64,000 nt of DNA from the NCBI RefSeq assembly GCF_013410565.1, contig NZ_JACCFO010000001.1:3100001-3164000 (forward strand), given 5' to 3'. This DNA comes from Streptomonospora nanhaiensis. GTDB lineage: Bacteria > Actinomycetota > Actinomycetes > Streptosporangiales > Streptosporangiaceae. The position numbers and the translations under genes are program-made. Below the pieces are notes generated by a model. That model was not told the origin of the DNA and did not search any database. It worked only from the letters and a program-made list of their open reading frames with translations. This document shows, piece after piece, positions 51,376 to 54,973 of this stretch; the stretch's first letter is position 1, and each line of letters starts with the position of its first letter.

Positions 51376-51777
51376 GTGACGCGACTTATATGTGCGGATG
51401 AGACGACATCGGGCGGGCGGACGCCCGCGCTGGTGCTCGACCTGGCCGGCGAACGCGTGAGCGTGCGCGAGGTGATCCGCCGGCGGGTGTTCCAGGAGGC
51501 CGCGGAGTACAACGCGCGCGAGTCCGCGGGGCCGTTCCGCGGGCTGGTGCGGCCCACCGAGGCCGAGGCCGCGCTGAACGGTCCGCGCGAGCCGCGGCAC
51601 GCCCCGCGCCGGGTCGATCCCGAGGAGCAGTTCGCGGCCGCCGTGGCGGCCTTCTCCCGCAACGGCTTCCTGGTGCTGACCGGCGACCGGCAGCTCACCG
51701 ACCTTGACGAGGAGGTCGAGCTGACCCCCGGCCTGGAGGTCACCTTCCTCAAGCTCGTTCCCCTGGTGGGTGGCTGA
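51376..51777 (+). CDS. Putative ubiquitin-like (beta-grasp) protein ending in Gly-Gly
   Basis: 133 residues. It is a conserved partner of DUF4132 genes as I recall them in other actinobacteria. The N-terminal strand and helix ('ALVLDLAGERVSVREVIRRR') and the C-terminal strands ('FLVLTGDRQLTDLDEEVEL', 'LEVTFLKLVPLVGG') look like a MoaD/ThiS-type beta-grasp. The exposed C-terminal tail ends exactly in Gly-Gly, as in proteins that are adenylated or conjugated. Its TGA overlaps the next ATG (TGATG), so it is translationally coupled to the DUF4132 gene. The fold and any conjugation are inference. The GTG start is leaderless-type. Confidence 0.6.
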   Translation: MTRLICADETTSGGRTPALVLDLAGERVSVREVIRRRVFQEAAEYNARESAGPFRGLVRPTEAEAALNGPREPRHAPRRVDPEEQFAAAVAAFSRNGFLVLTGDRQLTDLDEEVELTPGLEVTFLKLVPLVGG

Positions 51778-54700
51778 TGCCCGACTTCGACGACCCCGCG
51801 TTCGACACCGCCGTGCTGGAGGCCGCCGAGTGCGGCGGCCCCGCCGCGGCCTGCGAGACCGTGCTCGCCGCCGACGACTTCCCGGGGGCGGTGCGGCGGC
51901 TGCGCATGCTCCCCGCCGACCTCCGCCGCCAGATGGCGGGGGCCTGCGTCGAGCTGTACCGGGCGGCCGGGCCCTCAGCGCGGCGCGACCGGCTCCGCAC
52001 CGCGCACGCCGGGCTGCTGGGACGCCGGATCGACCTCCTGGACTCCGACGGGTTCGAGGCCGCCGCGCTGGCCAGCATGCACCTGGGCTCCTCGGCGACC
52101 GACGACAAGCGGGCCGTGCTCGAGACCGCGCTGGCCTCGGGCGAGGTCCCCCGCATGGCCGACCGGCTGCGCACCTTCGACTCCGAGTACCGGCGCAGGC
52201 TCACCGAGTTCGTGCTGGGGCGGATGTGGGAGACCGCCGCGGAGCCGGAGCGCCGTGAGGGCGTCCTGTGGCTGCACACCGCGCTGGCGCCCCAGCCGCT
52301 GCTCCTGGGCGCCCCCGCTTCGGAGGCGGCGCTGCGCGAGGCCGCCGGCCCCGGCGCCCCCGCCGAGGCCGCCGAGGTCGTCGCCGAGGACACCCCCCTC
52401 CCGGTCAAGGTGCGGCGGCTGGCGGACCTGCCCCGCGACGTCCGCCACGCCCTTGACCGGCACTGCGCCGAACTCCTGGCGGCGGCGTCCACCCAGGAGC
52501 GGCGGGAGTCGCTGCTGTGGGTGCGCGCCCTGGTGTCGGCGCGCCCCCTGGAGCAGCTCGGCTACGACCACCTGGAGCCCCTGCTGCGGGCCGCCGCCGA
52601 GCACGGCGACGCCGAGACCGCGTGCGAGGCCCTGCTGGCCGACAGCGCGTTCTCCGGCACGGCCGAGAAGGCGGCCCAACTCCCCGCCGAGGTCCTGCTC
52701 CCCCTCGTCGAGTCCTGCGCCGACCTGTACCCGCGGGTCCCCGAGGCACGGCGCCCCGACCTCCTGCGGCTGCACGCGCAGCTGTCGCTTCCGCTGGATC
52801 GGCCCGACGACCGGCTGGCCGCTCCACGCCAGGAGGCCCTGGCCCGTGCCGACCCCGCGGACCTGCGCGACCTCCTGATCCACCGCAACCTCGCCTGGCT
52901 GGAACTGGCCTCCGGCCGCACCATCCCCCGAGGCTCGGCGCCCGGATCCGGCACGAGTGCCACGGCACCCACCCCTTCTACGCCGACACGCTGCGCCGGA
53001 TCACGCGCCTGCTCGCCGAGCGCCACCCGCCGCTCAACGCGGGCGAGCCGTGGACCGACCTCGCCGTCGCCGACCTCGCCGGTCTGCCGCCCGCCTGGAC
53101 GGAGCTGGTCCGGCACGCGGCCACGGCCACCAAGGCGCGGCCCGACCGCGCCTGGGAGAAGCGGGCGCGGTCCCTGCTGGCCGAGGTCGACGAACGGGAG
53201 TTCCGCGAGCGCGCCCTGGCCTGGCTGGCCCTGGTGGGCGGCAGCCGCATGCCCCGCGAGCCGGACAACCACAACCACGTCGCGGCCCGCGGCCTGGTGT
53301 GGCTGCTGTCGTTCACGCCCGCCCACCCCCGCACGGCGCGCGGGCTGGGCGCGCTGCTGGAGCGGGCGCTGCACCGGGTGCCGGGCGTGGGGCCGGGCAT
53401 GCCCAAGCTCGCCGGGGCCTGCGCCAACGCGCTCAGCGCGATGGAGGGCGAGGCCGCGCTCGCCGAGCTGGCCCGGCTCGCCACCCGGGTGACCTACAAG
53501 TCCACCCTCAAACTGGTCGAGGCCGGCCTGGAGGCGCGGGCGCTGGCGCTGGGGCTGGGCCGCGACGAGATCGAGGAGCTGGCGGTGCCCGCCTACGGCC
53601 TCACCGAGGTCGGCCGCCGGGTCGAGCACCTCGGCGGTGCGCGGGCCGAACTCCTGGTCGACGGCCGCCGGGCGGAGCTGCGCTGGTTCAGCGCCGCGGG
53701 CGCGCCGGTGAAGTCGGTACCGGCCGCCGTGCGGCGCGACCACGCCGACACACTGAAGGAGCTGAAGGCCGACGCCAAGGCCGCCGCCGCGATGCTGACG
53801 GCGGTGGCCAAGCGCCTGGACCGCTCCTTCCTCACCGACCGCGCGTGGCCCGCGGCGGCCTGGCGGGAGCGCTACCTCGACCACCCCCTCGTCGGCACGC
53901 TCGCCCGCCGCCTGATCTGGACGGTCGACGGCACGCCGTGCGCCTACGCCGACGGCGCCCTGCGCGGCCTCGCGGGCGAGGAGGTCGCGCCGCGGGGCGA
54001 GGTGCGCCTGTGGCATCCGGTGGGCCGCCCGGTCGAGGAGGTGATGGCCTGGCGGGAGCGGCTGGAGCGCGAGCGGGTCACCCAGCCGTTCAAGCAGGCC
54101 CACCGCGAGGTCTACCTGCTCACCGAGGCCGAGCGGCGCACCGGCACCTACTCCAACCGGTTCGCCGGGCACATCCTGCGCCAGTACCCGTTCCGCTCCC
54201 TGGCGGCCGAGCGCGGCTGGCGGGACCCCCAGCTGCGCATCTGCCACCACGACTGCGCCTACCCGCCCGCCATGCGCGACCTTCCCGAGTGGGGCATCCG
54301 CGCGGAGTACTGGGTGCGCGGCGACGGCTCCCTCAGCGACGCCCCCACCACCGGCTCCGGCGCCTACGAGTTCCTGGCCGCCGACCAGGTGCGGTTCTAC
54401 CCGATCGACGCGCCGCACACCGAGTTCAGCACCATGGACGACGGCGGGTTCGCCGGCCGGGGCGCCGACGCCGCGCTGCCGCTGGCGGAGGTCCCGCCCC
54501 AGGTGTTCAGCGAGGTCCTGCGCGACGTCGACCTGTTCGTCGGCGTCACGGGTGTCGGCAACGACCCCACGTGGCAGGACGGCGGCCCCGGCGGGCGCTA
54601 CCGGGAGTACTGGTCGTCCTACAGCTTCGGCGACCTGAGCGAGACCGCCAGAACCCGCCACGACCTGCTGGCCCGGCTGCTGCCCCGGTTGGCGGTCGGC

Positions 54701-54973
54701 GACCGCTGCCGGGTCGAGGGGCGCTTCCTGCACGTCCGGGGCGACCTGCACACCTACCGGATCCACCTGGGCTCGGGCAACATCCTGATGGACCCGGGCG
54801 ACCGGTACCTGTGCATCGTCCCCGACAGCACGCCCGCCGCACCCGACACCTACCTGCCGTTCGACGGCGACCGGGTGCTCTCGCTCATCCTCAGCAAGGC
54901 GCTGCTGCTCGCCGAGGACACCCGCATCACCGACCCGACGATCCTCAGCCAGATACGGCCCCAGGGGGCCTAG
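51777..54973 (+). pseudogene. DUF4132 protein, frameshifted in a C-run
   Basis: From ATG 51777 the first frame runs to about 52930, and homology continues in another frame to 54973. Adding one C to the CCCCC at 52926-52930 joins them into 1065 residues ('SGRTIPPRLGARIRHECHG'). The first 380 residues are helical repeats. The DUF4132 core lies at about 700-860 ('WTVDGTPCAYADG', 'VRLWHPVGR', 'QPFKQAHREVYLLT'). A conserved C-terminal domain follows ('VDLFVGVTGVGNDPTW'). E. coli YehI/MolR share DUF4132. Function is unknown. It could be a true pseudogene or a single-base sequence error; both halves are otherwise well conserved. Confidence 0.85.

Follow-up and report, generated by a model that had tools for sequence, protein, structure and literature searches.

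A small protein with a terminal Gly-Gly and a predicted ubiquitin fold is paired with a DUF4132-DUF7737 protein in several bacterial phyla

The window analyzed here is a stretch of 64,000 nucleotides from Streptomonospora nanhaiensis (contig NZ_JACCFO010000001.1, positions 3,100,001 to 3,164,000), in which positions 51,376 to 54,973 hold a gene for a 133-residue protein ending in Gly-Gly and, directly behind it, a gene for a large protein that carries the domains DUF4132 and DUF7737. The small protein belongs to a gene family that is real, beyond chance, and whose members end in Gly-Gly and co-occur with, and lie adjacent to, genes encoding DUF7737. The pair spans phyla, and it is a new, partner-specific variation on the theme of Gly-Gly beta-grasp proteins. 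The preferred reading, to which a probability of roughly 0.45 is given, is that the two proteins are a carrier and its client, with the Gly-Gly tail being used by the DUF4132-DUF7737 partner following activation by a shared ThiF-rhodanese enzyme. That the genes act together as a single functional unit is part of this reading and is proposed just as tentatively.

A preliminary description of this DNA, made from the sequence alone, reported a 133-residue protein with a Gly-Gly tail and a stop codon that overlaps the next start, and these features are confirmed (Table 1). The protein ends in EVTFLKLVPLVGG and is matched by no model in Pfam or NCBIfam (in Pfam even at an E-value of 1). Relatives were found in 57 of 150 genomes of the taxonomic family, representing 31 of 68 genera (E 0.001). 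The distribution is patchy, as just two of the six genomes sampled from the window's own genus are positive. These genome searches scored few first-look candidates per genome (10 in a 396-genome survey of the phylum, at most 28 in the 150-genome survey), such that the absences reported from them are no proof. Loci were fetched for 40 of the 63 matching places in the 150-genome sample, which together with L006 and L007 gives 42 loci, and two broken ones were dropped (L062, which is shifted and runs into the partner frame, and L066, which is cut short). The Gly-Gly lies directly at the stop codon in all 40 intact relatives, including one that looks degenerate elsewhere in the protein (L065). Nine different codon pairs spell the terminal Gly-Gly, ruling out a tail that arose by chance, and conservation in the family extends beyond these two residues to the entire last strand. 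Between the window and its sister species, the small gene has nonsynonymous and synonymous divergences (dN and dS) of 0.05 and 0.28. Broken or degenerate copies of either gene of the pair occur at L062, L065, L066, L159, and L029, which suggests that loss of the pair genes has happened repeatedly.

The tie between the two genes is evident from both surveys. Relatives of the small protein are present in 18 of the 396 genomes of the phylum survey. Gly-Gly ends occur in the window and in nine fetched loci (L091 is shortened and L097 has an in-frame stop), whereas the other eight relatives, all of family f17, lack Gly-Gly (e.g., VLERPVVARDA). DUF4132 was detected in all 10 Gly-Gly genomes versus none of the eight genomes of the other kind, with eight further genomes containing DUF4132 and no small protein, and DUF7737 is found among the 396 genomes in precisely the 10 with a Gly-Gly small protein. 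The eight f17 relatives (L085, L086, L088, L089, L092, L093, L094, L095) are orphans that provide a natural control; neither DUF4132 nor DUF7737 was found in their genomes. The conservation of the terminal Gly-Gly among homologues, which the preliminary description had set as a check on its proposal, thus extends from the 40 intact relatives to 10 of 10 phylum-survey genomes with DUF7737, the exceptions being the eight orphans and, with the pair kept, a single Bacteroides record described below.

In the 150-genome sample, the small protein occurs in 57 genomes, DUF7737 in 60, and both in 55; two genomes (G012, G056) have the small protein without DUF7737. The small gene lies within 6 kb of DUF7737 at 52 of 62 places and is not adjacent at the other 10. 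At the 52 places, DUF7737 is downstream on the same strand in 42, upstream on the same strand in seven, and on the opposite strand in three. This retention of linkage despite rearrangement argues for a functional tie. Fisher values for the co-occurrence ignore kinship and are of descriptive use only. DUF4132 is a neighbor in 45 of 59 loci, while the next most frequent cluster occurs in 13, at scattered positions (blastp clustering with a home-made gene caller, clusters unannotated). The coupling to a DUF4132 protein that was first proposed for the window is therefore real, and it is specific to DUF4132 proteins carrying DUF7737.

The idea that the small protein is tied to DUF4132 at large was rejected in favor of DUF4132 with DUF7737, as a family-profile search of 20 loci of other DUF4132 genes found 19 without a relative. 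The remaining locus, L159, holds a remnant of the small protein beside a DUF7737-bearing partner. DUF7737 is present in four of the 20 loci (L147, L148, L149, L159), and the rest appear to contain WGR-DUF4132 or short DUF4132 genes as judged by size and neighbors, the Pfam scan having been applied to L145 alone. L145 encodes a WGR-DUF4132 protein, a MoxR-type ATPase, a DUF5682 protein, and a CoxE-type vWA protein, a type that we take to be the one named MolR/YehI. This system has the DUF4132 domain in common with the partner of the small protein, but differs in possessing WGR and in having no DUF7737 match and no Gly-Gly relative in the locus. Conversely, Pfam finds DUF4132 and DUF7737 but no WGR in the partners of the window, L006, and Deinococcus radiodurans, and clustering of the neighbors in 59 loci, with clusters unannotated, gave no second conserved one such as a MoxR or vWA gene would be.

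Other phyla were sampled through plasmid records only. The pair is carried by D. radiodurans and D. ficus, with small proteins ending in LTALAGG, and by Novosphingobium humi, in which the small protein ends in LTPLKGG. The D. radiodurans pair is DRA0165 (SEP068184)-DRA0166, in which a gene for a 134-residue small protein lies two bases ahead of a gene for a 1626-residue partner containing DUF5724, DUF4132, and DUF7737. The two-gene architecture is that of the window pair, while the partner is longer by virtue of its extra DUF5724 region. In Acetobacter oryzifermentans the partner is present and no relative of the small protein was found in the 12.7 kb examined; the upstream gene was considered for this role and rejected, as it is not a relative.

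Structure prediction for the 133-residue protein gives a ubiquitin-like beta-grasp with a tail that is predicted to be disordered, in line with the fold guessed in the preliminary description. The model has strands at residues 2-10, 15-23, 98-102, 105-107, 113-115, and 121-126, a helix at 30-47, and inserted helices at 60-68 and 82-94, and the predicted fold is near those of the human molybdopterin synthase small subunit and SAMP1. The small protein consequently has two features of ThiS/MoaD carriers, the beta-grasp fold (as predicted) and the terminal Gly-Gly. The resemblance to MoaD/ThiS that had been read from its C-terminus is not borne out as kinship in sequence. None of 13 diverse family members matches ThiS in Pfam, comparison of the family profile with ThiS/MoaD using hhalign gives a probability below 1% (26 family members; 26 of 30 loci used), and the gene is not among the five PF02597 (ThiS/MoaD) matches in the window genome. 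Because the profile comparison shows no similarity, the small protein is not filed under PF02597, and membership by sequence is rejected.

The partner gene in the window is split between two frames. Its alignment to the intact sister gene of Streptomonospora mangrovi (L005), a single open reading frame (ORF) of 1063 residues, shows in-frame differences and a one-base difference in length near 52928. The window copy is therefore regarded as frameshifted, which would reflect either an assembly error or recent decay. The large DUF4132 ORF described at the outset does start at the overlap with the stop codon of the small gene, but it closes at 53492, and the domains are read in the second frame (Table 1). 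Alignment of 53 partner C-termini (16 partial sequences were dropped) reveals many invariant polar residues, and the DUF4132-DUF7737 module appears to contain an enzyme-like set of them. The near-invariant Cys of DUF7737 is found in 48 of 48 partner copies from 46 loci with a Gly-Gly gene and in three of five copies elsewhere. It is missing from the copies of Bacteroides, where the small protein ends in SGRLW, and Acetobacter, where none was found; the copies having Cys without an intact Gly-Gly gene are two in G125 and that of the broken locus L062. The association (Fisher 0.007, uncorrected for kinship and from a small sample) suggests that Cys and Gly-Gly go together, and that this side chain may be a reactive site.

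In the proposed carrier/client pair, the small protein would serve as a ubiquitin-fold carrier with a flexible Gly-Gly tail, and the DUF4132-DUF7737 protein would be its dedicated client. A housekeeping ThiF-rhodanese enzyme, with its gene in another part of the genome, would activate the tail by adenylation and perhaps thiocarboxylation. Once activated, the tail would pass into the DUF4132-DUF7737 module, perhaps at the near-invariant Cys. Carrier/client pairs of this kind are familiar, as MoaD works with MoaE and ThiS works with ThiG. In these systems, as in the pair, a small beta-grasp Gly-Gly protein adjoins its client, and the ThiF-type enzyme may be a shared one whose gene lies at another site. 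The pair differs in that its small protein has no detectable sequence similarity to MoaD/ThiS, contains a long insert that separates helix 1 from the third main strand, and has a different client. On this proposal, DUF4132 with DUF7737, both domains of unknown function, gains a concrete partner, and a Deinococcus DNA-damage gene pair gains a hypothesis open to testing, in which the Gly-Gly protein with the ubiquitin fold is activated and then put to use by its neighbor. If the chemistry is covalent, we know of no leaner ubiquitin-like system in bacteria; if not, the pair is still a cross-phylum two-protein unit.

Activation by a ThiF-rhodanese enzyme encoded elsewhere is considered most likely, since searches around the pair turned up no E1 gene. 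When the ThiF domain of the window genome served as a single-sequence phmmer query (E 0.01, without a positive control), 65 loci covering 1.19 Mb, the entire window included, gave no match, and an E1 linked to the pair is rejected. This result upholds the earlier remark that the window contains no E1-like enzyme, while the survey for ThiF neighbors suggested alongside it came back empty. The one ThiF protein detected in the window genome is encoded at 4.69 Mb and also carries a rhodanese domain. With respect to E2 and JAB, no neighbor family other than DUF4132 exceeds 13 of the 59 loci (blastp clusters, unannotated and not scanned with profiles for E2 or JAB). The available part of PMC1779556 describes ubiquitin-like operons of bacteria that contain E1, E2, and JAB genes, some of them also encoding a largely helical protein. 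The ubiquitin fold is common to these operons and the pair, but the pair differs in having no ThiF match in the 65 loci and DUF4132 as its sole conserved neighbor.

Several observations weigh against the carrier/client reading. Bacteroides finegoldii, represented by one record, retains the pair with a small protein ending in SGRLW, so a free Gly-Gly is not required everywhere, and the lack of detectable sequence similarity to ThiS/MoaD counts in the same direction. DUF7737 occurs without the small protein in five of 60 genomes at E 0.001 (G003, G025, G045, G125, G141); the match is partial in G003 and G141 and the frame is short in G045, whereas the domain matches in G025 and G125 are full-length. 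The loci at the DUF7737 genes of these last two genomes (L147, L148, L149) lack any relative of the small protein, which makes them exceptions to strict pairing, and both G125 copies have kept the Cys. Seven genomes (G142, G100, G058, G122, G099, G068, G089) have the two parts either more than 6 kb apart or on separate contigs. With 145 of the 150 family genomes positive, ThiF is so near-universal that it gives no specific link to the pair, and G136 has the pair with no ThiF found in an assembly that is 84% complete. Finally, no enzyme fold was identified for the partner because the model of the L006 protein is poor, with a predicted local distance difference test (pLDDT) score of 58.9 and generic helical repeats matched at low confidence in its first half. 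This model does not discriminate among a carrier/client pair, a non-covalent subunit, and conjugation, and a search for solved structures similar to the partner by sequence gave no matches.

The function of the pair has been probed in Deinococcus. The available part of PMC8533742 places DRA0165, in a putative operon with DRA0166, among the targets of DdrO (motif at -83) and reports its strong upregulation on DdrO depletion, which left moeA and moeB unchanged; mitomycin C raised tagged DRA0166 in an IrrE-dependent manner. Since the unit is reportedly induced by DNA damage, a stress role in Deinococcus is likely. According to the available part of PMC9650054, deletion of DRA0165 results in higher antioxidant capacity, catalase activity, and katA mRNA, DRA0165 binds the thioredoxin DRA0164 in pull-downs, 157 proteins are common to four tagged DRA0165 pull-downs (C-terminal tags included), and the predicted DRA0165 structure resembles MOCS2 and SAMP1. 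The same text states that DRA0165 is confined to Deinococcus and has no DdrO motif (RDRM). The published RDRM site is present 82 bases ahead of the annotated DRA0165 start (L134:1052-1071), in agreement with PMC8533742 and contrary to this statement, and confinement to Deinococcus is contradicted by the relatives surveyed in other taxa. A word search of the main text of PMC9650054 gave no instance of 'ubiquitin', 'gly-gly', or 'glycine'. In the open-access literature, no paper joining DUF4132 with ubiquitin-like proteins was found, and none was matched via DUF5724 or DUF7737.

The alternative that survives best, although doubtful, is that the small protein is a non-covalent subunit with a regulatory or structural role, whose last residues would sit in the partner as a strand or plug, the Gly-Gly being a steric matter and no activation or transfer taking place. 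Such a subunit is compatible with the Bacteroides pair, with the 65 loci unmatched by ThiF, and with conservation over the whole last strand. It accords poorly with a Gly-Gly that is strictly terminal in every intact relative, with a tail predicted to be disordered, and with the eight relatives of the phylum survey that lack both Gly-Gly and partner; the co-occurrence of Cys with Gly-Gly, kinship uncorrected, also speaks against it.

True conjugation appears unlikely. The DUF4132-DUF7737 protein would in that case be a combined E2/E3-like transferase that forms a thioester on the DUF7737 Cys, with targets being modified under stress. An equally improbable extension is a two-part stress-linked ubiquitin-like system, in which a Gly-Gly modifier would pass through the thioester on Cys of a single DUF4132-DUF7737 protein to its targets, the ThiF-rhodanese enzyme being borrowed. 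The terminal Gly-Gly, the predicted ubiquitin fold, and a near-invariant Cys beside an invariant His are suggestive of conjugation, and the helical repeats of the low-confidence partner model could bind targets. The 157 shared pull-down proteins of PMC9650054 might be cited in support, but as far as its available part goes the C-terminal tags, which are expected to block conjugation, gave the identical 157. The absence of a ThiF match in the loci and of a second conserved neighbor, a partner model too poor to lend support, and the Cys retained in two G125 copies without the small protein also argue against it.

A sulfur carrier of the MoaD/ThiS kind for molybdenum cofactor or thiamine, as MolR-like annotations and the Deinococcus papers suggest, is highly improbable: the predicted closeness to the human molybdopterin synthase small subunit and SAMP1 (likewise given for DRA0165 in the available part of PMC9650054) and the presence of modA, thiD, and thiS within ~10 kb in D. 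radiodurans are outweighed by the five other PF02597 matches of the window genome, which exclude the small-protein gene, by DUF4132 being the sole conserved neighbor over 59 loci, and by moeA and moeB being unaltered on DdrO depletion in the available part of PMC8533742.

Table 1. Positions of the gene pair and its features in the window
Feature	Position	Strand	Basis
Small ubiquitin-like (beta-grasp, predicted) protein, 133 residues, GTG start	51376..51777	+	ORF and fold model
Gly132-Gly133 codons at C-terminus (GGTGGC)	51769..51774	+	Gly-Gly in 40/40 intact relatives
Stop codon TGA overlapping ATG (51777) of partner gene	51775..51777	+	Sequence
Partner gene, N-terminal frame, out of frame past ~52928	51777..53492	+	ORF; alignment to sister gene
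Partner gene, second frame with DUF4132 and DUF7737	52517..54973	+	ORF; Pfam
Putative frameshift (approximate), 1-base length difference from intact sister gene	52928..52928	.	Alignment; two-frame match
DUF4132 domain (PF13569)	53699..54220	+	Pfam E 1.9e-48
DUF7737 domain (PF24879), co-occurring with Gly-Gly protein	54647..54955	+	Pfam E 1.6e-40
His of HLGS motif, DUF7737	54764..54766	+	53/53 aligned partners
Near-invariant Cys of DUF7737 (YLCIVP)	54812..54814	+	51/53 partners

Membership in a known anti-phage defense system was rejected, as PADLOC models gave no match for five of five proteins. Carriage by phages was also looked for, and neither viral contigs nor phage records gave a match at the search sensitivity used. 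At L064, two frames weakly match a rhodanese domain (E 6e-6 and 9e-4). DUF4132 genes of other kinds also recur in particular arrangements. At L143-L146, DUF4132 genes of ~1100-1190 residues are followed by genes of 359, 748, and ~374 residues, so that L143, L144, and L146 share the gene sizes of L145, and at L152-L157 short DUF4132 genes (~244-303 residues) lie immediately ahead of genes of ~1600 residues. Some genomes have multiple DUF4132 matches, with 11 in G090, eight in G131, and seven in G120.

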